A DNA stretch of 24,600 nt from a virus. The notes under the pieces are model-generated. The model was given only the letters and a program-made list of their open reading frames with translations. It made no database searches and had not been told where the DNA came from. The stretch is from positions 1 to 24,600 of the IMG/VR virus record IMGVR_UViG_3300042308_000062. One strand, 5' to 3'. The translations under genes were made by a program, and so were the position numbers. Shown piece after piece: positions 11-23,183 of the stretch. The number at the start of each line of letters is the position of its first letter. Positions within the stretch are counted from its first letter, which is position 1.

Positions 11-60
11 TGTTACAGTGTTACAAAAGGGGTGGGGAATGTTACAGGGGGGTTGTTACG
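11..60 (+). repeat. Direct repeats of TGTTACA half-sites
   Basis: TGTTACA occurs at 11-17, 19-25 and 40-46, with a one-mismatch copy (TGTTACG) at 54-60. The first two are 8 bases apart. They are the same half-site that forms the inverted repeats at 140-152, 271-285, 376-393 and 408-424. Direct spacing on one side and palindromes on the other resembles iteron or operator arrays. Confidence 0.75.
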
Positions 61-139
61 ATGGTGGTGTAGGGGGTACTTAATGAAATCAACAACTTAG
101 CGGTGTTTTGGATATAGTGGGGCTATAAAATAGATCGTG

Positions 140-152
140 GTTACACTGTAAC
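140..152. promoter_or_regulatory. Palindromic TGTTACA-family site 1
   Basis: GTTACA and TGTAAC face each other across one central base, a perfect inverted repeat with 6-base arms. It has the same arm-centre-arm layout as the sites at 271-285 and 408-424. It is a probable site for a dimeric DNA-binding protein that is not identified in the window. Confidence 0.65.
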
Positions 153-270
153 AGGGTATTTGGGGGTATGAAGGTCTAAAATCTTTTTTCTTTAGTTTTA
201 TATAACTATACACACAAACATATACCAATCTATATGGCTCAGAATTTGACCGTCTCAATTCTGAAAAGAC

Positions 271-285
271 TGTTACAATGTAACA
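271..285. promoter_or_regulatory. Palindromic TGTTACA-family site 2
   Basis: TGTTACA and TGTAACA are separated by a single A, giving a perfect 7-base-arm palindrome. It is followed directly by an alternating AT run and then a TC run, which could melt easily. Confidence 0.7.
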
Positions 286-321
286 ATATATATATATTAT
301 ATCTATCTCTCTCTCTCTCTC
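286..321. repeat. AT-alternating run followed by TC dinucleotide run
   Basis: An alternating AT tract (about 286-300) leads into about eight TC units (306-321). It lies between palindromic sites 271-285 and 376-393. An AT-rich element beside repeated protein sites is typical of DNA unwinding elements in origins; that role here is inference only. Confidence 0.6.
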
Positions 322-375
322 AGAGTTTTGAAACGCTTAGTATTACATTTGCAGGGCTATTTGCAAAAAAACAAC

Positions 376-393
376 GTTACAGAGTTTTGTAAC
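376..393. promoter_or_regulatory. Palindromic TGTTACA-family site 3, wide spacing
   Basis: GTTACA (376-381) and TGTAAC (388-393) form an inverted repeat with a 6-base spacer, unlike the 1-base spacer of the other palindromes. It lies 14 bases from site 408-424, so two dimers could bind next to each other. Confidence 0.6.
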
Positions 394-407
394 AAACTGG
401 GGGTGTT

Positions 408-424
408 TTGTTACATTGTAACAA
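408..424. promoter_or_regulatory. Palindromic TGTTACA-family site 4, longest arms
   Basis: TTGTTACA and TGTAACAA flank a single T, giving a perfect inverted repeat with 8-base arms. It is the most complete member of the family in this region. Confidence 0.7.
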
Positions 425-483: not shown

Positions 484-641
484 TGCTGATTTTTGTCCCC
501 TCGGTCGCCCCGAAGCTCTCTCCCGCACCCACGCACACGCACTCGCGCGCTCGCTCTCCCGCACCGCCTAACTACTATGACGTTCTACGAACGGACAATG
601 GAAGCGCACGCAGAGAAAATTTTTGGGAAAAATTTTGGGCG

Positions 642-2031: not shown

Positions 2032-2583
2032 ATGTACACACCTGTAATTGACTTCAATATTCCGCTTGCGGACTACTCCCCGACATTCGAGTCGCTGGAG
2101 ACCCGCGTGGCCGCAGCCATGGCTGCGTTAGTAGACACTAACAATCTGCCACCGCCAAACGAAATATCCGAAACGGACAAGCACAAGGCCCGCGAGGTAT
2201 TCATCGGGAACGAGTTGGCGTCAGACGAGGACTTGTCTTCCCCCGGTATGGTGGTGTATCTGCAGTCCCTGTTGTCAGAATACGACACGGTAATTGTGAA
2301 GTCGGCGCAGCAGATGCGAACTTATGTAACTAATAAGCTACTTGCAGAAACGGCAAACCCAGACCCACGCATACGGATGAAGTCACTGGAACTGCTGGGT
2401 AAGATCAGCGACGTTGGGCTGTTTACGGACAAGACAGAAATCACAATGCGCCACCGACCTACGGAAGAGCTAGAACAAATGCTGCGGGAACGCCTGACCA
2501 AGGTGCTGGAAGCGGAAGTTGTAGACCCCAAGCCAACTAAGTCCCAAGTACAGATAGATATTAGCGACGTCGAAGCAATCTGA
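2032..2583 (+). CDS. Probable terminase small subunit
   Basis: The call rests mainly on position: it lies directly before the large terminase and overlaps it by one base (TGATG). The 183-residue length fits small terminases, which bind the packaging site as a ring and hand the DNA to the large subunit. The middle (residues about 75-130) is helical, with runs such as PRIRMKSLELLGKISDVGLF. The C-terminal part is charged (TEELEQMLRERLTKVLEAE), as expected for the large-subunit contact region. No helix-turn-helix is obvious by eye. The ATG at 2032 lacks a strong Shine-Dalgarno; in-frame stop TAA at 1999 rules out a longer frame. It is the first gene of the rightward virion operon. Confidence 0.7.
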   Translation: MYTPVIDFNIPLADYSPTFESLETRVAAAMAALVDTNNLPPPNEISETDKHKAREVFIGNELASDEDLSSPGMVVYLQSLLSEYDTVIVKSAQQMRTYVTNKLLAETANPDPRIRMKSLELLGKISDVGLFTDKTEITMRHRPTEELEQMLRERLTKVLEAEVVDPKPTKSQVQIDISDVEAI

Positions 2584-4106
2584 TGCAGCAAACCCTAACG
2601 CCAGAGATCATTGAACGGATTTCTAAGAAGCTGCCTCCAAGCGAGGCGGTGGAGTTACTTGCCATGTTTGCAGAGTTGGATGGCAGGAAGCGCCAGCAGT
2701 TGGCCCAAAACGACTTTCTATCGTTCATTGCTGCCATTGATCCTAACTATAAGTTTGGAGTTCACCTAAAACGACTTGGTGGCCTGCTGATGGAGGTAGA
2801 AACCAACCTGAAGAACCGGATTGCGGTGTCTATGGCACCTCGTATGGGTAAATCCCAGATGATTTCTATCTACTATCCGGCTTGGTACTTGGGAAAACAC
2901 CCCGACCACAAGGTAATTGTGGCCTCACACACCGCAGATTTAGCGGTTGTCATGGCCCGCAAGGTGCGAAATCTGATCAATACGCCCGAATACAAGGCAA
3001 TTTTCCCCGATACAAACATTGCAAGCGACGCAAAAGCTGCTGCGCAGTGGAATACGACCAAAGGGGGCGAGTATTTTGCGATTGGTGTGGGTGGTGCGCT
3101 CGCTGGTCGTGGTGCCCACTTGATTATTGCCGACGATCCACTGTCTGAGCAGGACATTAAGGCCGGAAACACCACATCTTTGGACAATGCATACGAGTGG
3201 TTCAGTGCTGGTCTGCGTACTCGACTCATGCCAGACGGGAAAATCTGTGTTTTACACACAAGGTGGCACCAGCGGGACCTGATTGGGCGGCTAATCAAGG
3301 ATTCCGCCATGAATGAGGGCGGGGACAGCTACGAAACCTTTGAATTCCCTGCAATTTTGAACGAAGGCACGGATAACGAGAAGTCAATCTGGCCAGAACA
3401 GTGGTCAATCGAGTCTTTGCAGCAAACCCGGGCGTCAATGCACCACATCATGTGGCAGTGGTACGCTCAATACCAGCAAAACCCAACCGCAGCCGAGGCT
3501 GCCATCATAAAACGGGACTGGATACGCTGGTGGGAGAAGGATGACCCGCCAAAAATTGACTTTATGGTGCAGGCGTTTGATACGGCGCTCACAACCAAGG
3601 AACGGTCTGACTTCTCCGTGTGCCATACGTGGGGCGTGTTTGAGAGTGAAGAAGACGGCACGCAAAACGTCATACTGCTGAACAAAGTCAAGGGGAAATA
3701 CGAGTTTCCTGAGCTAAAAGCCATGGCGCACGAGCAGTACAAGACGTGGGAGCCGGACAGTGTGATTGTCGAGGCTAAAGCCAGTGGTCAGCCGCTCATT
3801 GACGAGATGCGCAGGTCAGGTATATTTGTGCAGGACTTCAGTCCCGGCAAGGGGCAGGATAAAATCGCGCGGCTTAATGCCGTGGCAGACATGTTTGCGT
3901 CAGGGCACGTTTGGTTCCCCGAGAATGCGTGGGCTGCGGCCACTGTGGAGGAGATTTTGGCGTTTCCCGCAGGCGAGCATGACGACGAGGTAGACACCAT
4001 GACACTGGCGTTGATGAGAATTCGCAAGGGTGGGCTATTGCGCTTGAGCAGTGACCACGAGGATAATGAACCCTATTACGCGGGCCGTCGCCAAGCGTAT
4101 TACTAA
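2583..4106 (+). CDS. terL: Terminase large subunit
   Basis: This is the ATPase-nuclease motor that packages DNA through the portal. The N-terminal ATPase domain has a Walker A loop APRMGKS (residues 85-91), followed by VGGALAGRGAH and a Walker B strand HLIIADDP (179-186). The C-terminal RNase H-like nuclease begins at VQAFDTALT (Asp333), continues with VIVEAKASGQ (Glu397) and ends with HDDEVDTMTLALM (Asp467/468, Asp471). These acidic residues fit the usual metal-binding set. The C-terminal pattern with an R-S-D-F-S segment after the first Asp resembles the TIGR01630-type terminase C-terminal domain. At 507 residues it is of normal length. Its start overlaps the stop of the previous gene. Confidence 0.95.
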   Translation: MQQTLTPEIIERISKKLPPSEAVELLAMFAELDGRKRQQLAQNDFLSFIAAIDPNYKFGVHLKRLGGLLMEVETNLKNRIAVSMAPRMGKSQMISIYYPAWYLGKHPDHKVIVASHTADLAVVMARKVRNLINTPEYKAIFPDTNIASDAKAAAQWNTTKGGEYFAIGVGGALAGRGAHLIIADDPLSEQDIKAGNTTSLDNAYEWFSAGLRTRLMPDGKICVLHTRWHQRDLIGRLIKDSAMNEGGDSYETFEFPAILNEGTDNEKSIWPEQWSIESLQQTRASMHHIMWQWYAQYQQNPTAAEAAIIKRDWIRWWEKDDPPKIDFMVQAFDTALTTKERSDFSVCHTWGVFESEEDGTQNVILLNKVKGKYEFPELKAMAHEQYKTWEPDSVIVEAKASGQPLIDEMRRSGIFVQDFSPGKGQDKIARLNAVADMFASGHVWFPENAWAAATVEEILAFPAGEHDDEVDTMTLALMRIRKGGLLRLSSDHEDNEPYYAGRRQAYY

Positions 4107-4115
4107 GGACTTTAA

Positions 4116-6677
4116 ATGGCTACTAATATGTTCCCCTCTTTGAACCCAGCACCGCTTGGGTTGGATGCACTGGCCCCCGAGATGGACGAAGGCCCTGATA
4201 TTGAGGTCCAGATTGAGAACCCCGAAGGTGTGATCGTCGGCATGGACGGCGTTGAGATTGACCTAATGGAGATTATTGCAGGCGATAAGAGCGACGACTT
4301 TGACGCTAACCTTGCTGAAGAGATGGACGAGGGCGAGTTGCAGAAACTTGCCAGTGACTTGATTGAATTGGTAGATGCAGACATTGGCAGCCGCAAAGAC
4401 TGGGTTGAGATGTATGTCAAAGGTCTAGACGTTTTGGGGATGAAGTATGAGGAACGTACTGAACCGTGGCTCGGTGCTTGCGGAGTTTTCTCGACTGTAC
4501 TCACGGAGGCCGCTGTTCGCTTCCAGTCTGAAACTATCATTGAAACGTTCCCGGCGCAGGGTCCTGTCAAGACCGAAATCATCGGTGCTATTGACCGTCT
4601 TAAAGAGGAGGCTGCAGAGCGCGTCCGGGAGGACATGAATTACCAGTTGACCGAGGTGATGTCTGAGTATCGCCCCGAGCATGAGAAGATGCTGTACTCC
4701 CTTGGTTTGGCTGGCAGTGCGTTCAAGAAAGTTTACTTTGACCCCAGCCTGAATCGCCAGATTGCGGTGTTTATACCTGCGGAAGACATCATTATTCCTT
4801 ATGGTGCGTCGAGCCTGAAGACATCTGATCGTGTTGCGCACATCATGCGTAAAACCAAGAACGACATGAAGAAGCTGCAGGTAGCGGGCTTCTATCGTGA
4901 TGTTGAGTTGGGTGAGCCGCAAGTCATACATACAGACATTGAGAAGAAGAAAGCGGAAGACCAAGGCTTTACGCTTACAGATGACGACCGCTATCAGATT
5001 CTGGAACTACACGTCGACTACGACTTGCCGGGTTACGAGGATGAAGATGAGATCGCACTGCCATACGTGGTGACAATTGATCGTGGCACTAACAAAGTGT
5101 TGGCCATCCGCCGCAACTGGAACCCAGACGACAAGCGCAAATTAAAACGCGATCACTTCGTACAGTACACATACATACCCGGCTTTGGTGCTTATGGCTT
5201 GGGCTTGATCCACTTGATTGGAGGCTACGCACGCGCAGGTACATCAATAATCAGACAACTCGTGGACGCGGGTACGTTGGCTAACTTGCCCGGTGGCTTA
5301 AAGGCTCGTGGCTTGCGTATCAAGGGTGACGATACACCAATCAACCCCGGTGAGTTCCGTGATGTAGATGTGCCAAGCGGCGCAGTCAAAGACAACATCA
5401 TGATGTTGCCGTACAAAGAACCATCACAGGTTCTGCTGGCGCTCCTAAACCAGATCACCGACGAGGGCAAACGCCTTGGCTCTATTGCTGATATGAACAT
5501 CAGCGACATGAGTGCGAATGCTCCGGTAGGTACGACGTTGGCACTGTTAGAAAGACAATTGAAGACCATGAGCGCCGTGCAAGCGCGGGTTCACTACTCG
5601 ATGAAGCAAGAGTTTAAACTTTTGCGTGACATCATCCGCGACTACACACCAGATCAGTACAGCTTTGATCCATCAAGCGGCGACCGCATGGCAAAGCAAG
5701 AAGATTACGACATGGTGGACGTGATTCCTGTGTCCGACCCGAACAGCGCGACGATGGCGCAGCGCATCATGCAGTACCAAGCGGTGATGCAGTTGGCTCA
5801 ACAAGCTCCGCAGATTTATGACTTGCCGATATTGCACCGTCAGATGATCGAGGTGCTTGGTGTAAAGAACGCTGAGAAACTTGTACCTACAGATGACGAC
5901 ATGACACCACGCGACCCTGTCAGTGAAAACATGGCGTTCCTGAATGGCAAACCGACTAAAGCGTTTATCTATCAAGACCACGACGCACACATTTCTGTAC
6001 ATACATCAATGATGCAGGACCCGCTCATCATGGCGCAGGTTGGTCAGAACCCACAAGCCCAGAAGATGATGGCCGAGATTCAAGCTCACCTCTCAGAACA
6101 CTTGGCGTTTGCGTACCGCAAGAAAGTGGAAGAACAGCTTGGCGTGCCATTGCCACCACCCGACGAAGCCATGCCAGAAGATGCAGAAGTTATGTTGTCT
6201 CGTCTGGTTGCCCAAGGCGCACAACAAGTGCTGGCTGCGAGTAAAGGTCAGGTGGCAAATCAGCAAGCTCAGCAGATGCAGCAAGACCCAGTCATGCAGT
6301 TGCAGCAAGCAGAGTTGGCGATCAAGAAACAAGAAGCTGATACTAAGGCACTCAAGGTCAAGGGTGACTTGCAGCTTAAGGCCGAGGAGTTGTCACTCAA
6401 GGCGCAGGAAAGCGCAGCAAGAACAGGCGAAGACCCCGCCATGGCATCCATGCGGTTGCAGCAAGAAATTATGCAGGCGCAAGAGCTACACGGTATGGAG
6501 ATGGCTGCCAAACGGATGGAGCTTGAACAAGCTCAGGCCCAGCAACAGCAAGCTATGCAGCAACAACAAGCGCAGGTCCAGCAGAAGATGGCTCATGGCG
6601 GACAAGTACATAGCCAGAAGTTGGAGCATGCCGAGATGGACAGACTTTCAAAGTTATTACAAGGTAATAGGGAGTAA
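4116..6677 (+). CDS. Portal protein
   Basis: An 853-residue portal, the dodecameric ring at the capsid vertex through which DNA enters and leaves. Position after the large terminase, size and conserved stretches (FIPAEDIIIPYGASSLKTSD; SDMSANAPVGTTLALLERQL) match long portals of the P22/SU10 type. An acidic N-terminal region (to about residue 85) precedes the core. From about residue 690 the chain becomes a Gln/Ala/Lys-rich helical tail with long Gln runs, probably a coiled coil extending as a barrel-like or disordered crown. A clear AAGGA lies 6 bases before the ATG. The first 85 residues and the tail are low-complexity and would align poorly, so identification rests on the core. Confidence 0.9.
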   Translation: MATNMFPSLNPAPLGLDALAPEMDEGPDIEVQIENPEGVIVGMDGVEIDLMEIIAGDKSDDFDANLAEEMDEGELQKLASDLIELVDADIGSRKDWVEMYVKGLDVLGMKYEERTEPWLGACGVFSTVLTEAAVRFQSETIIETFPAQGPVKTEIIGAIDRLKEEAAERVREDMNYQLTEVMSEYRPEHEKMLYSLGLAGSAFKKVYFDPSLNRQIAVFIPAEDIIIPYGASSLKTSDRVAHIMRKTKNDMKKLQVAGFYRDVELGEPQVIHTDIEKKKAEDQGFTLTDDDRYQILELHVDYDLPGYEDEDEIALPYVVTIDRGTNKVLAIRRNWNPDDKRKLKRDHFVQYTYIPGFGAYGLGLIHLIGGYARAGTSIIRQLVDAGTLANLPGGLKARGLRIKGDDTPINPGEFRDVDVPSGAVKDNIMMLPYKEPSQVLLALLNQITDEGKRLGSIADMNISDMSANAPVGTTLALLERQLKTMSAVQARVHYSMKQEFKLLRDIIRDYTPDQYSFDPSSGDRMAKQEDYDMVDVIPVSDPNSATMAQRIMQYQAVMQLAQQAPQIYDLPILHRQMIEVLGVKNAEKLVPTDDDMTPRDPVSENMAFLNGKPTKAFIYQDHDAHISVHTSMMQDPLIMAQVGQNPQAQKMMAEIQAHLSEHLAFAYRKKVEEQLGVPLPPPDEAMPEDAEVMLSRLVAQGAQQVLAASKGQVANQQAQQMQQDPVMQLQQAELAIKKQEADTKALKVKGDLQLKAEELSLKAQESAARTGEDPAMASMRLQQEIMQAQELHGMEMAAKRMELEQAQAQQQQAMQQQQAQVQQKMAHGGQVHSQKLEHAEMDRLSKLLQGNRE

Positions 6678-11142: not shown

Positions 11143-11638
11143 TGTAAAACAAGGGCATTTAAACCAAAGTGGTTTTTTTGTTCTTGGGCGGAACCGTGTA
11201 AAAGGCGTTTCTTTTTACGGCGGTAGCGGAACTTTGGTTTTGTTTGATACAACCACAGCCCCAGTAACTTCAAGCGTAACTTATGCTCGTACAAACACGG
11301 TTGTAACTGTTACCAAAACTGCTCACGGGTTGTCAACTGGAAACGTTGTTGGTATTCACTTTGCCAGCAATGCAGGCGTTTCAGCCACAGACGGTAATTA
11401 CACAATTACTAAGACAGGCGCTGACACGTTTACGTTAAATGACATTAACACTGGAAGCATAACTTCTACTGCGGCTTTGTACGTAAGTGGCGCAAATCGT
11501 TGGTTAATGACTTACGAAACTCATTCATCAGATGAATTCCAAAACGCCCCCATGATTCCCGGCGAAGGCGTGTTGGCAGTCAATGGGATTTATGCCTACA
11601 TGAGCGCAATTGACGCAGCGCAGATTTATTATGGCTAA
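11126..11638 (+). CDS. Structural protein with beta-sandwich-like segment
   Basis: A 170-residue protein. The first 50 residues contain a hydrophobic strand region (SGFFVLGRNRVKGVSFYGG). Residues about 50-115 form a repeat-like beta segment with the pattern VTVTKTAHGLSTGNVVGIHF and NYTITKTGADTFTLNDI, common in Ig-like or fibre-surface domains of tail proteins. A C-terminal segment (MTYETHSSDEFQNAPMIPGE) ends the chain. GGAG lies 7 bases before the ATG at 11126, which overlaps the preceding gene by 17 bases. A tail or head-surface role fits its place, but this is inference. Confidence 0.75.
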   Translation: MTMQYDVKQGHLNQSGFFVLGRNRVKGVSFYGGSGTLVLFDTTTAPVTSSVTYARTNTVVTVTKTAHGLSTGNVVGIHFASNAGVSATDGNYTITKTGADTFTLNDINTGSITSTAALYVSGANRWLMTYETHSSDEFQNAPMIPGEGVLAVNGIYAYMSAIDAAQIYYG

Positions 11639-11885
11639 GTCTCCAGCATGGCAGAGGAAAGAGGGCAAATCGGACGCGGGCGGATTGAACGCCAAGGGCC
11701 GTGCTTCCTACAACAAAGCCAATCCGGGCAAGCCGGGATTGAAAGCGCCCCAACCAGAGGGCGGGTCCCGGCGCGACTCCTTCTGCGCTCGAATGAGTGG
11801 CATGAAGAAAAAACTAACAAGCGCGAAGACGGCGAACGATCCGAATTCACGTATCAACAAGAGCCTACGGGCGTGGAACTGCTGA
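11631..11885 (+). CDS. Small basic phage protein with conserved WQRKEGK and RKWNC-like ends
   Basis: An 84-residue strongly basic protein: SPAWQRKEGKS near the N-terminus, GGLNAKGRASYNKANPGKPG, then SFCARMSGMKKKLTSAKTAN and a C-terminal SLRAWNC. I recall this pattern from a widespread small phage protein family (I believe DUF6321, not verified). The ATG at 11631 overlaps the previous stop by 8 bases; a longer reading from 11610 adds only MTQRRFI and is less likely. Two conserved Cys residues could bind metal or form a disulfide. Function unknown; its basic charge and virion-operon place suggest contact with DNA or a shell protein. Confidence 0.8.
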   Translation: MAKSPAWQRKEGKSDAGGLNAKGRASYNKANPGKPGLKAPQPEGGSRRDSFCARMSGMKKKLTSAKTANDPNSRINKSLRAWNC

Positions 11886-11886
11886 C

Positions 11887-12078
11887 ATGAGCGATACGCA
11901 CGAAACGACAAAGCATGTTGTTGATGCGCTGTCGATAATGACTGTTGTGGGAACCCTAGTGGAAATGTTGCCGTCTATTGCCGCAATCTTCACAATTGTG
12001 TGGACGGTAATCCGCATCTGGGAAACCGAAACGGTGCAAAATTTGCTGGGTAGGAAAGGCAAACAAAGTGCCGAGTAG
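11887..12078 (+). CDS. Holin-like small membrane protein
   Basis: A 63-residue protein with a hydrophobic stretch from about residue 14 to 45 (VVGTLVEMLPSIAAIFTIVWT) that can form one or two membrane segments. It is preceded by a short charged N-terminus and followed by a charged tail (RIWETETVQNLLGRKGKQ). Size and charge layout fit small phage holins, which form the membrane hole that starts lysis. No endolysin or spanin is next to it, so a different membrane role is possible. The ATG lies one base after the previous stop. The next gene starts inside its last codons with GTG. Confidence 0.6.
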   Translation: MSDTHETTKHVVDALSIMTVVGTLVEMLPSIAAIFTIVWTVIRIWETETVQNLLGRKGKQSAE

Positions 12079-12517
12079 TTCTAAAAAACAACATAATTTC
12101 ATGGCAGCGGTGGCTAACAACCCATCTTTTGCTAAGAAAGTAGGCGTCCCACAGTCCGTGGGCAAGGACTTTAACCAAGCGGACAAGGGCCGCAAATTCT
12201 CTAAAGGTGGCGATATGAAAAAGATGAATATGGGCGGATATGCAGACGGCGGTATGCCTATGGTTAACAAGGGCGGCAAGATGGTCCCTTCCTTTGCTGC
12301 TGACGGCAAGGGCAAGATGGCCAAAGGTGGCATTGCTACTTCTTTGAAAGCCCACGCTGCGGCTCCCGCGTCTAAAGCACACGGTATGAAAAAAGGCGGT
12401 ATGGCTGCATCCAAAATGGGTTCAGTCAAAACTTCCGCTACTCGAGATGGTGTCGCGTCTAAGGGTAAAACCAAAGGCAAGATGATTAAGATGAACATGG
12501 GCGGCAGAGCCTGCTAA
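12068..12517 (+). CDS. Basic Lys/Gly/Met-rich protein with KGKT motif
   Basis: A 149-residue protein that starts with a compact module (SSSKKQHNFMAAVANNPSFA, then KVGVPQSVGKDF) familiar from small phage proteins. It continues with low-complexity Lys/Gly/Met repeats (MKKMNMGGYADGGMPMVNKG) and ends with a motif RDGVASKGKTKGKM, which recurs in the next gene and at 15006. The GTG at 12068 gives the full N-terminal module; an ATG at 12101 would cut it. Very basic, flexible proteins like this may bind DNA or RNA in the particle, but no function is known to me. The start overlaps the holin-like gene by 11 bases. Confidence 0.75.
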   Translation: MPSSSKKQHNFMAAVANNPSFAKKVGVPQSVGKDFNQADKGRKFSKGGDMKKMNMGGYADGGMPMVNKGGKMVPSFAADGKGKMAKGGIATSLKAHAAAPASKAHGMKKGGMAASKMGSVKTSATRDGVASKGKTKGKMIKMNMGGRAC

Positions 12518-15460: not shown

Positions 15461-16296
15461 ACTACAGTGAGCTTGTCACGCAGGTAAGCGATTACTGCGA
15501 GAACTCTTTCCCAACTGACAATATGAATGTGTTCATTCGTCAGGCGGAGCAGCGCATCTATAACACCGCGCAGCCTGCTAATTTGCGAAAGAACGTGACG
15601 GGCGCATTAACCACTGGTAATAAGTACCTCCAGTGCCCGACAGACTTTCTGTCGGTATATAGCCTTGCCGTATATCCGTATAACACTACAACTGCTACAG
15701 GAACATCTGGGCAGAAAACAATTGTGGTGGCTAGTACGACAGGTATTGCTGTGGGCCAGCAGGCAACTGGGACAGGGATTGGCACTAATGCACAGGTTCG
15801 TAGCATTGCTGGAACCACAATCACATTAACTGTTGCAAATAGCGGTACGGTATCAGGCTCTATTGTCTTCCAAGGTGATTACTTGTATCTCTTGAACAAG
15901 GACGTTAACTTCATCCGTGAAGCTTATCCCTTGTCTGCACAGGTCAGTGAACCCAAACACTACGCAATCTTTGGCCCTCGGTCAGATGATGTAAATGAAT
16001 TGACGTTCATTGTTGGGCCTACTCCAAGTGCCGCATACATTGCAGAACTTCACTACAACTACTACCCCGAGTCAATTGTTACCGCCGGCACCACTTGGCT
16101 GGGTGATAATTTTGATTCTGTATTGTTGTATGGAACTATCTGTGAGGCTTACACCTACATGAAGGGTGATGGGGATATGGTTAAGCTGGCTCAAGATCGC
16201 TATGTACAAGCTATTGCTCTGTATAAAAACTTGTCAGATGGAAAACAGCGCGCGGACGCATTTCGTGACGGTCAGCTACGGGTGGCAGTTTCATGA
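15457..16296 (+). CDS. Second connector or tail-tube-type protein with inserted beta segment
   Basis: A 279-residue protein beginning with a helical region (MNYSELVTQVSDYCENSFPT, FIRQAEQRIYNTAQPANLRK) and a strand core (YLQCPTDFLSVYSLAVYPYN). It ends with a helical C-terminal segment (KLAQDRYVQAIALYKNLSDG). This plan is common in phage connector, stopper or tail-tubular proteins. Residues about 79-138 form a Thr/Gly-rich beta insertion like the one in the 13686 protein. The ATGA overlap with the preceding gene and AGAGG support the start. The HNH gene begins inside its last codons. Confidence 0.75.
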   Translation: MNYSELVTQVSDYCENSFPTDNMNVFIRQAEQRIYNTAQPANLRKNVTGALTTGNKYLQCPTDFLSVYSLAVYPYNTTTATGTSGQKTIVVASTTGIAVGQQATGTGIGTNAQVRSIAGTTITLTVANSGTVSGSIVFQGDYLYLLNKDVNFIREAYPLSAQVSEPKHYAIFGPRSDDVNELTFIVGPTPSAAYIAELHYNYYPESIVTAGTTWLGDNFDSVLLYGTICEAYTYMKGDGDMVKLAQDRYVQAIALYKNLSDGKQRADAFRDGQLRVAVS

Positions 16297-16922
16297 AAAA
16301 ACTAACACGCCAAGAAGCCAAAGCAGCGGGTATTTCTCGTTGTTTTGGTAGCACGTGTTCCAAACACCCAGATTTAAATGGCGAAAGATATGTATCAGGT
16401 TCATGCGTTGCGTGCGCGACCGAACATACCAAGGCTTCCCGTAAGGCCAACCCAGAGCGCACTAAAGCGCATGAGCAAAAACGTAGGGTTTTAGTGAAGC
16501 GTACACCCGAACTTAAAGCCAAAAAGAATGCTCAAGATGCGGCATACCGCCAAGCAAACAAAGAACAATGTACCGCAACTATTAGACTATGGCGTGAAAA
16601 AAACCGCGCACTGTCTAATTCGTATGTGCGCAAATCAAAAGCCAAGAACCCAGCAATTGTTTTAGCTAACACTGTAAAACGCCGTTTGGCAAAGTTACAC
16701 CGCACACCATCTTGGCTTACTACTGAAGATCATTGGATGATTGAGCAGGCTTATGAACTAGCTGCACTGCGGGCTAAATTATTTGGGTTTTCTTGGCATG
16801 TAGATCACGTAATACCACTGCAAGGGAAACTTGTGTCTGGTTTGCATACCCCATACAATTTGCAAGTAATCCCCGGAACGGAAAACGTGCGCAAATCAAA
16901 TACATTTGGGGCTGTTTCATGA
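16293..16922 (+). CDS. HNH endonuclease with N-terminal zinc finger
   Basis: A 209-residue nuclease-like protein. The N-terminus has a CX4C...CX2C cluster (Cys17, Cys22, Cys38, Cys41). A long basic helical linker follows. The C-terminus holds the HNH signature: WHVDHVIPLQGKLVSG (His169, Asp171-His172), NLQVIPG (Asn189) and ENVRKSN (Asn198, Asn203). It would cut DNA. Freestanding HNH genes in virion operons are usually mobile endonucleases that spread by cutting genomes without them. The gene fits by 4-base overlaps at the start and 4 bases with the next ATG at the end, so it does not break either neighbour. Confidence 0.9.
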   Translation: MKKLTRQEAKAAGISRCFGSTCSKHPDLNGERYVSGSCVACATEHTKASRKANPERTKAHEQKRRVLVKRTPELKAKKNAQDAAYRQANKEQCTATIRLWREKNRALSNSYVRKSKAKNPAIVLANTVKRRLAKLHRTPSWLTTEDHWMIEQAYELAALRAKLFGFSWHVDHVIPLQGKLVSGLHTPYNLQVIPGTENVRKSNTFGAVS

Positions 16923-18760: not shown

Positions 18761-21700
18761 ATGACTACAGGCGCAACGGGACAATTAGGTTTAGCTCTAC
18801 CAGTACAGGGTGAACTCTCCGGCACATGGGGCGATACCGTTAACAATGGTCTAACGCAATACATCAATATTGCTATTGCTGGTACGTTAACTCTGACCAA
18901 TGACGGTGCAGTAACTTTGGCTAACACCACTGGTGACGCTTCAGCTTCTAACATCACAACCACCCTGACAGGCGCTGGTACAGTTACAGCCCAGTTTGCC
19001 ATCGTGCGAGTTACGGGTACGCTGACCACTGCCAAGGTAGTCACGGCCCCAAGCTACAGCAAGACATACACAGTGGTGAACGCTGCCACGGGCGGCATCG
19101 TCACGTTTAAAGCATCAGGTCAGACTGGTGTATCTGTTGCTGTAGGTGAGACAGCGTTTGTTTACTTCAACGGCACAGACTATGTGAAGGTTGTTGGTAC
19201 TGCTACGGCTGGCGCGGCTGGTGGTTCTAACACTCAGGTTCAGTTCAACAGTTCCGGCATATTGGCTGGTTCTGCCAACATGACATTCAACGGCACTACG
19301 CTGACTGTTAATGACCTGACTGATTCCTCTTTGACTGCCACTCGGATTGTTTTTGCTGGTACGGCTGGTAACTTAAACGATTCAGCCAGCCTGACATGGA
19401 ACGGCACAACACTTAGCTCCACACAAGTCAACATCACAGGCCAAGGCACACTGCGCTTGGAAGATACAACTGGTGGTGAGTATGTTGGCCTTCGTTCGCC
19501 TTCAGCATTAGGTGCAAGCTACACACTGACATTCCCCGCAGATGACGGCACAAGCGGTCAGGCTCTGATTACGGACGGCTCTGGTGGTCTGTCTTGGTCT
19601 ACAGCGGCTTCTGGTGATGTGTACGGCCCAGCCTCTGCTACGGCTAACGGTATTGCTCTATTTGATGGTACGACAGGTAAGATCATTAAAGACTCAGCCG
19701 CGCAGGATGGTTTGATCCGTGGGATGACTATAGGTTTGGGTGGTGGTGCTATTGCTACTAGTACTACTGTCGGTTATCAGGCTTTGAATGGAGTTAATAC
19801 TGTTGGATTTAATGTTGCAATTGGGTATCAGGCTTTAGTAACTAGCACTTCAGGCGCAGCTAACACTGCTGTAGGCTATCAGGCTGGATATTCGGTTAAT
19901 GGGTCAAGTAATACTTTTGTTGGGGAAAGCGCTGGTACATCGGTTACTTCTGGAAGTTTTAACACGGCTATTGGTCGTCAGTCTGGTGGGGCAAACGCAG
20001 GTTCAACTGGCTCTAACAATTCTTCTCTTGGTTATCAAGCCCTTTTCTCCAACACCACAGCATCTAACAACACGGCAGTGGGCTATCAGGCGGCTTACAC
20101 AAACACTACGGGCATAAACAATACCGCCATTGGAATGTATGCCCTTTATGCTAACTCTACAGGGGCGCAAAATACTGCTGTAGGTTTTCAAGCCAACAAC
20201 TCCAACACCACAGGTGAATACAATGCGGTTCTTGGGCGTGATGCTCTTGTCCTCAATACAACAGGTTCTTATAACACTGCTTTAGGTAGTCAATCACTTC
20301 GCTCCAACACCACAGCATCTGACAACACTGCCATAGGTTATCAGGCGGCTTACTCAAATACCACAGGTACTGGTAACATTGCCGTTGGCACAGCCTCGCT
20401 TTACAGCAACACATCTACCTCATTCAACACTGCTGTGGGGTATTATGCCCTTAACGCAAGCACAGGGTCTGAGAACACTGCCGTTGGCACAGGCGCACTA
20501 GGAAGCAATCTTACTGGCTCTTACAATACGGGCATTGGCAGACACGCTTTAGTTTCGAATACCATAGCATCTCAAAATACAGCCGTAGGTTATGCAGCGG
20601 GATATAGTAATACCACGGGCATAGGTTTAACGGCAATAGGTTTTCAAGCGGCATACAGTAACAGTACAGGATCAACCTACAACACAGCAGTAGGTTATCA
20701 GGCTGGATATTCAACCACAACTGGTGTTTACAACGTATTCATTGGGGGTTACGAATCGGGCGCATATTCGGCTGGATTCTCAAACACCACTGGTGGCTAC
20801 AACGTAGGTCTAGGTAATGGCGCATTATCAAGAAACACCACAGCATCATTTAACACGGCTGTTGGCTATCGTTCTATGTACGCAAATACAACAGGAACAG
20901 AAAACACCTCAATGGGCCAAGGAACTATGTCGGGAAATACGACAGGTTCTTACAATGCCGCTTATGGCAACGGTGCATTAGGTAACAACTCTACAGGCGC
21001 TAACAATACAGCCTTGGGTTATTTTGCTCTTGTATCCAACACTACAGCATCTAGCAACACTGCTGTCGGTTATCAGGCGGGGTATAGCAATACAACAGGC
21101 GCATCCAATACAGTGGTTGGAAGCAGGGCCTTGTTTAACAATACAACAGGTTTTGGCAACACCGCAATTGGTGATGACGCGCTTTATACAAACAGTACCG
21201 CCTCATACAACACCGCAGTAGGACGGTATGCGGCTAGAGCAAACACCACTGGTGCAGGCATCACTGCCATCGGTCATCAGGCGCTTGCCTTCAACACCAC
21301 AGGCTCTGGAAACGTAGCGGTTGGTGGATACCAAGAAGGTGCTGGAGTGCTTGCCGCTTTGTACAACAACACCACAGGCTCACTTAACGTCGCTATGGGC
21401 GTAGGAGCATTAAGGGCTAACACTACAGGCTCTCAAAACACTGCTATTGGGCATCAAGCAGGTTATTCAAATACAACAACAATCGGAGGCGTAACGGCCT
21501 TGGGATATATCGCCTTGTATAGCAATACAACTGGCGCAGGAAATGTTGCTGTTGGAGCAGGTGCAGGCTATTCAATGGATGCGAACAGTTACAGCACCTA
21601 CATTGGACACTACACGGGCTACAACACAACGGGCGGTGGCAATACTTTTATTGGAAATTCTGGCTCTAATGGTTCTGTTGGTTGTGGTTTTTATATGACC

Positions 21701-22339
21701 ACTGGAACAAACAACACCATTATTGGTGGATACACTGGGAACATGGATGGCCTAGACATCAGGACTTCTAGCAATTACGTTGTACTTTCCACAGGTCTTG
21801 GTAATCGTCAACTTACTATGGGCGAATCCCTAACGGTTGCCCTTGACTCAGCAGTCCCAGTGGCTGGCACAGGCATCACATTCCCCGCAACTCAATCAGC
21901 ATCATCAAACGCTAATACTTTGGATGACTATGAGGAGGGGACTTGGACACCTGTTCTTGGTGGTGATGTAAGCGTATCTGGGCAGTCTTACACCGCAAGA
22001 CAAGGTCGATACACAAAAATTGGAAATATTTGTTTTGTTGAATTTGATGCCGAGTTATCCAATAAAGGAACTCTCTCTGGAACTGCAAACATATCTGGCT
22101 TGCCATTTGCCGCCGCCAGTACAGGCGATATATCTCAAGGCGGTGGTTCCACAACATACTTTGCAAATTTGGGTGTATCCGTTGTGAGTGTTGTGCCGGG
22201 GCCTCAACCGGGGGAAGCATTTTTGTATCCAAGATATTTAACTGCGGCGGCTAACACAATTACAGTTGGCACTCCAGCGTCAACATTTTGGGCAAACAAT
22301 ACTCGGTTTGCTGGAATGTGCTGGTATCAAGTCAATTAA
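18761..22339 (+). CDS. Long tail fibre with YadA-head-like repeats
   Basis: A 1192-residue fibre. The N-terminus (QLGLALPVQGELSGTWGDTV) is the usual virion-anchoring domain of many environmental phage fibres. A beta-rich shaft with GGSNTQVQFNSSGILAGSAN and LEDTTGGEYVGL follows. From about residue 336 to 996 comes a long array of units with the pattern NTAVGYQAxYxNTTGxx, mostly 17 residues, as in YadA/Hep_Hag trimeric adhesin heads. The C-terminal domain begins with LDDYEEGTWTPVLGG near residue 1053 and includes QGRYTKIGNICF, a common fibre tip that may bind the receptor. No S74 peptidase signature is seen. AGGAG precedes the ATG. Confidence 0.88.
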   Translation: MTTGATGQLGLALPVQGELSGTWGDTVNNGLTQYINIAIAGTLTLTNDGAVTLANTTGDASASNITTTLTGAGTVTAQFAIVRVTGTLTTAKVVTAPSYSKTYTVVNAATGGIVTFKASGQTGVSVAVGETAFVYFNGTDYVKVVGTATAGAAGGSNTQVQFNSSGILAGSANMTFNGTTLTVNDLTDSSLTATRIVFAGTAGNLNDSASLTWNGTTLSSTQVNITGQGTLRLEDTTGGEYVGLRSPSALGASYTLTFPADDGTSGQALITDGSGGLSWSTAASGDVYGPASATANGIALFDGTTGKIIKDSAAQDGLIRGMTIGLGGGAIATSTTVGYQALNGVNTVGFNVAIGYQALVTSTSGAANTAVGYQAGYSVNGSSNTFVGESAGTSVTSGSFNTAIGRQSGGANAGSTGSNNSSLGYQALFSNTTASNNTAVGYQAAYTNTTGINNTAIGMYALYANSTGAQNTAVGFQANNSNTTGEYNAVLGRDALVLNTTGSYNTALGSQSLRSNTTASDNTAIGYQAAYSNTTGTGNIAVGTASLYSNTSTSFNTAVGYYALNASTGSENTAVGTGALGSNLTGSYNTGIGRHALVSNTIASQNTAVGYAAGYSNTTGIGLTAIGFQAAYSNSTGSTYNTAVGYQAGYSTTTGVYNVFIGGYESGAYSAGFSNTTGGYNVGLGNGALSRNTTASFNTAVGYRSMYANTTGTENTSMGQGTMSGNTTGSYNAAYGNGALGNNSTGANNTALGYFALVSNTTASSNTAVGYQAGYSNTTGASNTVVGSRALFNNTTGFGNTAIGDDALYTNSTASYNTAVGRYAARANTTGAGITAIGHQALAFNTTGSGNVAVGGYQEGAGVLAALYNNTTGSLNVAMGVGALRANTTGSQNTAIGHQAGYSNTTTIGGVTALGYIALYSNTTGAGNVAVGAGAGYSMDANSYSTYIGHYTGYNTTGGGNTFIGNSGSNGSVGCGFYMTTGTNNTIIGGYTGNMDGLDIRTSSNYVVLSTGLGNRQLTMGESLTVALDSAVPVAGTGITFPATQSASSNANTLDDYEEGTWTPVLGGDVSVSGQSYTARQGRYTKIGNICFVEFDAELSNKGTLSGTANISGLPFAAASTGDISQGGGSTTYFANLGVSVVSVVPGPQPGEAFLYPRYLTAAANTITVGTPASTFWANNTRFAGMCWYQVN
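19769..21750 (+). repeat. Array of about 51-bp repeats in the fibre gene
   Basis: More than 30 units, most of 51 bp (17 residues), encode the fibre repeat. Two longer units have insertions (GGYESGAYSAGF and GGYQEGAGVLAALY). A TTAS or similar variant appears at regular larger steps, hinting at multi-unit duplication. Confidence 0.8.
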
Positions 22340-22404: not shown

Positions 22405-22662
22405 ATGTCTACATTTACAGAAATCACATACATCTCTCAATTTGACATCCAACCCAACGGATGTATTGGTGTTCGCAAGACCACCGATGTCCTTAAGGAT
22501 GGCGTTGTTATCTCGTCAACCTACTGGCGTTGCGTCCTCGTGCCCAATGACCCCACGGCATCCACCGTGCTAGACGAGGCGTACTACCTCAGCATCGCAA
22601 CTTACGCTTGGAGCCAACCATCTCCACAACCTTACGTTCCACCATCACCACCAACTGTTTAA
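22405..22662 (+). CDS. Small fibre-adjacent protein, 85 residues
   Basis: An 85-residue protein with strands TEITYISQFDIQPNGCIGVR and SSTYWRCVLVPNDPTASTV and a Pro-rich C-terminus (WSQPSPQPYVPPSPP). AAAGGA lies upstream of the ATG. Similar small proteins often follow phage fibre genes and may be fibre assembly helpers or capsid-surface additions, but this is by position only. It is followed two bases later by the second HNH gene, whose longer in-frame extension (from 22608) would run inside this gene and is not used. Confidence 0.75.
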   Translation: MSTFTEITYISQFDIQPNGCIGVRKTTDVLKDGVVISSTYWRCVLVPNDPTASTVLDEAYYLSIATYAWSQPSPQPYVPPSPPTV

Positions 22663-22664
22663 AC

Positions 22665-23183
22665 ATGACTACCCTGACACAAGAAGAGGCAAACCGCCTG
22701 TTTGAGTACAGGGACGGTAATTTGTTTTGGAAGCCAAGAATTATGTCCCGTGGTAGGCCAAGCGTCTTAACTGGGAAAAAAGTTGGTTGTCCAAACGGCA
22801 GTGGTTATTTCACAATGGTGTATAACAAGCGTAAATACTATTTGCACCAGTTGGTTTTTCTTATGCACCACGGGTATATCCCGTCTAACATAGATCATAT
22901 TGACGGTGTAGGTTCTAATAACAGGATTGAAAATCTACGCCCAGCGTCTGTTTCTGAAAATATGTACAACACAAAAATTAAAAGCACAAATACCAGTGGT
23001 TTTAAAGGTGTACATTTTCATAAACAGCACCAGAAATGGCAAGCCAAACTTTGGGTTCGTAAAAAACAAATAGCACGTTTGTTTGACACCAAGGAATTGG
23101 CTGTGGAATTTATGGAGTTATTTCGTGAAACGGCACACGGTCAATTTGCCAATCATGGTCATCATCAAGGAGCATCAGCATGA
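22665..23183 (+). CDS. HNH endonuclease with AP2-like domain
   Basis: A 172-residue nuclease-like protein. The HNH part has YYLHQLVFLMHHG (His61), NIDHIDGVGSNN (Asp77-His78, Asn85-86) and RIENLRP (Asn90). The C-terminal part from about residue 113 (GFKGVHFHKQHQKWQAKLWV) is an AP2-type DNA-binding domain, a common pairing in mobile phage endonucleases. After the usual end (HGQFAN) there is an extra tail HGHHQGASA, whose DNA carries the ribosome site of the next gene. The ATG at 22665 lies two bases after the previous stop with no strong ribosome site. Confidence 0.92.
   Translation: MTTLTQEEANRLFEYRDGNLFWKPRIMSRGRPSVLTGKKVGCPNGSGYFTMVYNKRKYYLHQLVFLMHHGYIPSNIDHIDGVGSNNRIENLRPASVSENMYNTKIKSTNTSGFKGVHFHKQHQKWQAKLWVRKKQIARLFDTKELAVEFMELFRETAHGQFANHGHHQGASA

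Follow-up and report, generated by a model that had tools for sequence, protein, structure and literature searches.

A conserved array of near-palindromic heptads upstream of the terminase genes of uncultured tailed phages, a possible replication origin

Iteron origins usually combine iterons, an IHF site and an AT-rich segment; in pSC101, R6K gamma and P1 oriR, the repeated sites lie by an AT-rich segment together with an IHF site and a gene for a DNA-binding protein. In lambda cosB, repeated R sites and IHF occur on the side of the terminase genes. RHH centromere-binding systems have many short near-palindromic sites, and heptad or octamer operators of the Omega/MetJ type are built from short near-palindromic units at 7–9-bp offsets beside an RHH gene. 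Mor and C of phage Mu, with a C-terminal helix-turn-helix (HTH), have a single dyad as their site, and arrays of the OmpR/RstA type consist of tandem sites spaced 10–11 bp.

The locus described here lies at the start of a 24,600-nt stretch of viral DNA (the window; positions 1 to 24,600 of IMG/VR record IMGVR_UViG_3300042308_000062), which is a linear fragment that begins inside the array. It resembles the three iteron origins in having repeated sites by an AT-rich segment, an IHF consensus and a DNA-binding gene next to the array (the neighbour gene). It differs from them in that the sites are near-palindromic heptads, in that they lie in arms which mirror each other across the AT tract, and in that the neighbour protein has no match to a Rep-type winged-helix initiator. 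Repeated sites and an IHF consensus on the terminase side are shared with lambda cosB, but the locus is 1.6 kb from terS, is much longer and has no proven cut site. Short near-palindromic units, 7–9-bp offsets and an RHH-like gene beside them recall the Omega/MetJ operators, but the RHH_1 match of the neighbour protein is below the cut-off and off the N-terminal strand, and one relative (L200) has no RHH-like part. The HTH of the neighbour protein is like that of Mor/C, but it scores below the gathering threshold, the N-terminus is different and many sites replace the one dyad. An OmpR/RstA-type array is excluded because the heptads have offsets of 8–9, 13–14 and 20–21.

An earlier note on this DNA had reported at least eight TGTTACA copies at 11–424. 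The cluster was found to comprise nine exact copies and three one-base variants:

11–423: the array, 12 YGTWACR-like heptads that fall into five clusters (11–60, 139–153, 271–285, 375–394, 409–423); candidate binding sites
11, 19 and 40 (plus), 147 (minus), 271 (plus), 279 (minus), 388 (minus), 409 (plus), 417 (minus): exact TGTTACA
54–60, 139–145 and 375–381: one-mismatch heptads TGTTACG, GGTTACA and CGTTACA, respectively
12811 and 17337: exact TGTTACA outside the array, in the same window

Nine exact TGTTACA/TGTAACA copies, on both strands, thus fall within 11–423, compared to two in the remaining 24 kb. The total of 11 is mildly unusual for the whole window (5.6 expected; 11 were reached in 4 of 100 shuffles), and 9 of the 11 are packed within 413 bases. 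This local clustering and the excess of heptads in relatives rule out a chance origin of the array. The four palindromes agree with the earlier description, three of them having a 1-bp spacer (139–153, 271–285, 409–423) and one a 6-bp spacer (375–394). Since TGT-W-ACA is near-palindromic, the distinction between direct and inverted repeats is carried by the central base of a heptad alone, and YGTWACR, a nearly palindromic heptad set at quantised offsets, describes the repeat unit better. Across relatives, these offsets are 8 (71 times), 9 (22), 13–14 (38) and 20–21 (43), and the heptad forms are TGTAACA (92), TGTTACA (86), CGTTACA (46), TGTTACG (45), TGTAACG (40) and others (26).

Relatives were gathered mostly via terL similarity or via the neighbour protein, and a minority of the 36 by a scan for the TGTTACA pattern. 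Their 36 dereplicated homologous regions of 620 bp, which are not independent samples because their lineages are related to each other, contain 335 heptads (dinucleotide shuffles: mean 17, maximum 29). There are 5–13 heptads in 34 of the 36 regions and one each in L186 and L247. The array is found about 2–3 kb upstream of terL in nearly all contigs which reach that far, with few heptads elsewhere; two long relatives have 11–12 heptads in a 700-bp array and 0.3–0.5 per kb in the rest of the sequence. Enrichment and conservation, on which the earlier proposal had been made to depend, are both strong. By its sequence features, this is a non-coding control region of about 0.6 kb that is common to dozens of related uncultured phages. 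The array may be the protein-binding part of this conserved locus in a lineage of roughly 60–68-kb tailed phages, an assignment to which we give nearly even credence. The motif or locus is described in none of the papers searched.

An alignment of 16 close relatives contains the five heptad clusters, the IHF consensus, the AT tract, the pyrimidine tract and a block conserved nearly letter for letter. In the window, the elements between the clusters are:

87–99, plus: AATCAACAACTTA, an exact match to the IHF consensus WATCAANNNNTTR (sequence match only)
286–304: AT tract, candidate melting element, abutting heptad pair 3
296–301, minus: TATAAT inside the AT tract, which may instead be a leftward -10
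305–321, plus: pyrimidine tract (TC)n, directly after the AT tract
325–374: block beginning TTTTGAAACGCTTAGTATTAC, near-invariant in close relatives and absent from distant ones

The AT run and the TC run, both of which had been noted before, are thus present, and they are conserved in relatives. In every lineage, even where heptads have decayed, the AT tract and then the pyrimidine tract occupy a fixed position after heptad pair 3; L186 retains the pyrimidine tract although it has lost most heptads, and L290 and L292 have a T tract in place of CT. The heptads flank the AT tract on both sides at offsets which look helical. Exact IHF consensus matches number 21 in the 36 regions (1.2 expected). 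Distant lineages have the same order of elements as close relatives, and their IHF consensus is on the opposite strand, directly after the pyrimidine tract. A circovirus-like nonanucleotide in the conserved block (TAGTATTAC) was dismissed since it is lost in distant lineages. Rfam and tRNA searches of the window returned nothing.

The outer parts of the locus form inverted arms, cluster 1 and its flanking palindrome mirroring clusters 4 and 5 and theirs. The right arm and the boundary of the locus carry the following:

442–453, minus: GTCATAGTTGT element, middle copy
463–482: AAGTTATAACCTTATAACTT palindrome of the right arm, lineage-specific in sequence, with its left-arm partner beyond the window
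571–582, plus: ACTACTATGACG element of the right boundary, with a conserved CTCTCCCGCACNG block before it

The arm palindrome varies by lineage (TTATAACCTTATAA, CTTAAGCTTAAG, TTCTAACGTTAGAA, GTCTAATATTAGAC), and both arms match within a phage. With heptads masked, an arm aligns to the other arm of its own phage with a score of 29.3 and to the arms of other phages with 19.0, a result reached in 0 of 20,000 permutations. The pattern raises the general question of how remote arms of a control region come to change in step, matching within a phage yet differing between phages. An invertible segment was rejected: none of the spanning contigs compared differs in orientation, and a shared inverted repeat would not account for the exact position of the contig ends (see below). 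L247 has new inverted arms (GTTGTTGTTGCGGAACAG). In L136, positions 1–50 are a perfect 50-nt palindrome at the contig start, whose fold-back point is the right-arm palindrome specific to the lineage; it was set aside because it looks like an assembly fold-back.

The earlier statement that no gene for a binding protein is seen is correct for the window. In relatives, a candidate exists: at loci which extend far enough, the gene next to the array on its left codes for a small protein (95–262 aa in the set examined) on the minus strand. In L128, 95 bp separate its start codon from the first heptad, and in the present record the gene would start some 80 bp to the left of base 1. The C-terminal part is a predicted HTH with invariant R, S, R and Q. 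It resembles Mor/C, sigma region 4 and KorA, all below cut-off: E-values are 2e-4 to 7e-4 for Pfam Mor (19.9 and 21.5 bits, gathering threshold 24.9), 8e-5 to 3e-4 for phrog_836 (late transcriptional activator) and 0.03–0.04 for Mu C chains. The N-terminus is usually RHH-like, a topology seen in a predicted model alone (pLDDT 84.5, pTM 0.47); Pfam RHH_1 scored 17.8 bits in one neighbour protein (gathering threshold 20.5). Fold searches against PDB and BFVD gave no match at E ≤ 0.001, and family searches gave none to a Rep-type initiator. L200, which has no RHH-like part, retains the array, which suggests that it is the HTH that reads the heptads. L247 and L248 retain both domains with degenerate heptads, which speaks against a simple model with one protein. 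We consider the neighbour protein a candidate for the heptad-binding protein. The degenerate heptads of L186, L247 and L248 occur beside a retained neighbour protein and a retained AT/CT/IHF core. Dense YGTWACR clusters were also seen in contigs without a match to the neighbour protein (L042:1440–1900, L038 around 830–1050, L085 around 11585–12240, L006 around 6026–6300).

To the right of the array, the window continues as follows:

648–667, minus: terminator-like hairpin at which the leftward genes end, short of the array
685–882, 894–1079 and 1126–1665, minus: three small leftward genes with no family match
1760–1732: promoter-like site
2032–2583, plus: probable terminase small subunit (terS), by position and our own reading, with no family match
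2583–4106, plus: terminase large subunit (terL), the query for collecting relatives

G008, a relative of 61 kb, has the array near the point from which late genes (terS, terL, portal and onwards) and early/replication genes diverge. The arm headed by the neighbour gene codes for an AAA ATPase, DNA polymerase A, a helicase, an exonuclease and a 946-aa primase-like/DUF927 protein. Palindromes (CCCTAGGGTTT) are repeated between the small leftward genes (675–686, 1087–1098, 1099–1110), with AAACCCTAGGGTTT in many relatives. L130 and L154 have an HNH-like ORF of 172 aa upstream of terS, about 1.1–0.6 kb upstream of terL, which is absent from the window.

The earlier note had suggested an iteron origin or a repressor/operator array. 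This is the right pair of alternatives, between which it did not decide; the IHF consensus, the AT and pyrimidine element at its fixed place and the mirrored arms make the region look more like a nucleoprotein site of several components. Our preferred reading, held at a little short of even confidence, is that the locus would serve for nucleoprotein assembly, most likely as a replication origin with control over the gene of its binding protein as well. The neighbour protein, as a dimer or higher oligomer, would bind the YGTWACR heptads; IHF would bend the DNA and join clusters from both sides of the AT tract. The resulting strain may melt the AT tract and expose the pyrimidine strand, and the origin would serve the primase-helicase-like protein and DNA polymerase of the phage itself. 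The array would double as operator of the neighbour gene at the head of the leftward early/replication genes. An origin is favoured by the conserved array at a single place, the AT/pyrimidine core, the IHF consensus, the heptads flanking the core, the neighbour gene and the replication genes on the same arm. Compared to iteron origins, the clustered non-coding sites, the AT-rich segment at a fixed place and the IHF consensus are all seen; the gene adjoining the array codes for a DNA-binding protein with no Rep-type match. Against an origin count the lack of a recognisable initiator beside the array, the greater likeness of the neighbour protein to transcription regulators, and the retention of this protein beside degenerate heptads in L247 and L248. 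GC skew gives no support: in two near-complete relatives, GC3 skew has no origin-like reversal at the array, a weak test for a lytic phage.

Given this lack of a reversal, a role in transcription control only comes close behind, and we regard it as a real if less probable alternative. The neighbour HTH (Mu C/Mor- and sigma region 4-like) would bind the heptads to repress or activate its own leftward early-operon promoter, with IHF aiding looping and the AT tract as the -10 region. The best sub-threshold matches of the neighbour protein are indeed transcription regulators, the array is directly upstream of its gene, and TATAAT lies on the leftward strand of the AT tract. However, the -35 match is weak and promoter-like matches are no more frequent than in shuffles; a simple promoter is a poor fit for twelve heptads spread over 400 bp and for an IHF site which switches sides of the AT tract between lineages, and the conserved pyrimidine tract is left unexplained. 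A centromere-like partition site bound by an RHH-type protein is far less probable still. Its many short near-palindromic sites and the RHH-like N-terminus would fit, but no gene of the ParA/ParM type was noticed beside the array in G008 among the part of the ORFs that was family-searched, and L200 has kept its heptads without the RHH-like part.

That heptads and IHF form a cosB- or pac-like site for terminase assembly upstream of terS-terL, cut lambda-style at GTCAT^AGT / ACT^ATGAC, seems improbable to us. It would account for the array being on the terminase side and for the IHF consensus, and in L042, an unrelated phage, the eight heptads are all confined to the stretch between a primase/helicase-like gene and terS, just before terS. 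It would also account for nine contigs of relatives that end exactly at the two boundary elements. Five of these (L224, L227, L230, L234, L241) end at the start codon of the neighbour gene (GTCAT^AGT) and four (L122, L139, L167, L171) begin at the right boundary (ACTACT^ATG), homologous to window position 577; in all nine contigs the end is position 1. L230 and L139 match the spanning contig L142, from an adjacent sample number, at 100% identity. Unrelated contigs seldom end at gene boundaries (4 of 142). The nine ends come from different samples and may be physical or processed DNA ends, or result from clipping at called genes. All nine coincide with start codons, and none of the four right-hand ORFs is shorter than 30 codons, so that clipping may be their cause. 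Seventeen further contigs have no end at the boundary elements. We thus give the contig ends little weight as DNA ends and retain physical ends solely as part of this packaging explanation. The distance of the array from terS also argues against packaging, which leaves the regulator-like neighbour gene and the AT/pyrimidine core unexplained.

It is also conceivable, if unlikely, that this is a replicon control locus of a previously undescribed kind: a mirrored array of YGTWACR heptads round an AT and pyrimidine core, bound by a phage protein of two domains (RHH-like and HTH) and by host IHF, with outer arms changing in concert within each phage and boundary elements that are possibly cleaved. 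The locus offers a concrete candidate for an origin or master switch, together with a candidate binding protein, in widespread uncultured phages which are distant kin of pelagiphages by their terminase. A DNA-level search gave no match among phage isolates. The nearest isolates by TerL are DSL-LC04, HTVC023P and HTVC027P (43–45% identity; genomes of 57–62 kb); the likeness is in TerL, and the neighbour protein has no convincing match in the phage collection. A prophage state was not adopted: genome contigs yielded one close relative, a 5.7-kb contig binned with an Armatimonadetes MAG.

Further downstream in the window, 18761–22339 codes for a protein of 1192 aa, probably from the tail or a fibre, in which near-identical NTAVGYQA-type repeats occur many times. 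HNH/endonuclease VII-like genes at 16293–16922 and 22608–23183, within the structural cluster, possibly code for homing endonucleases.
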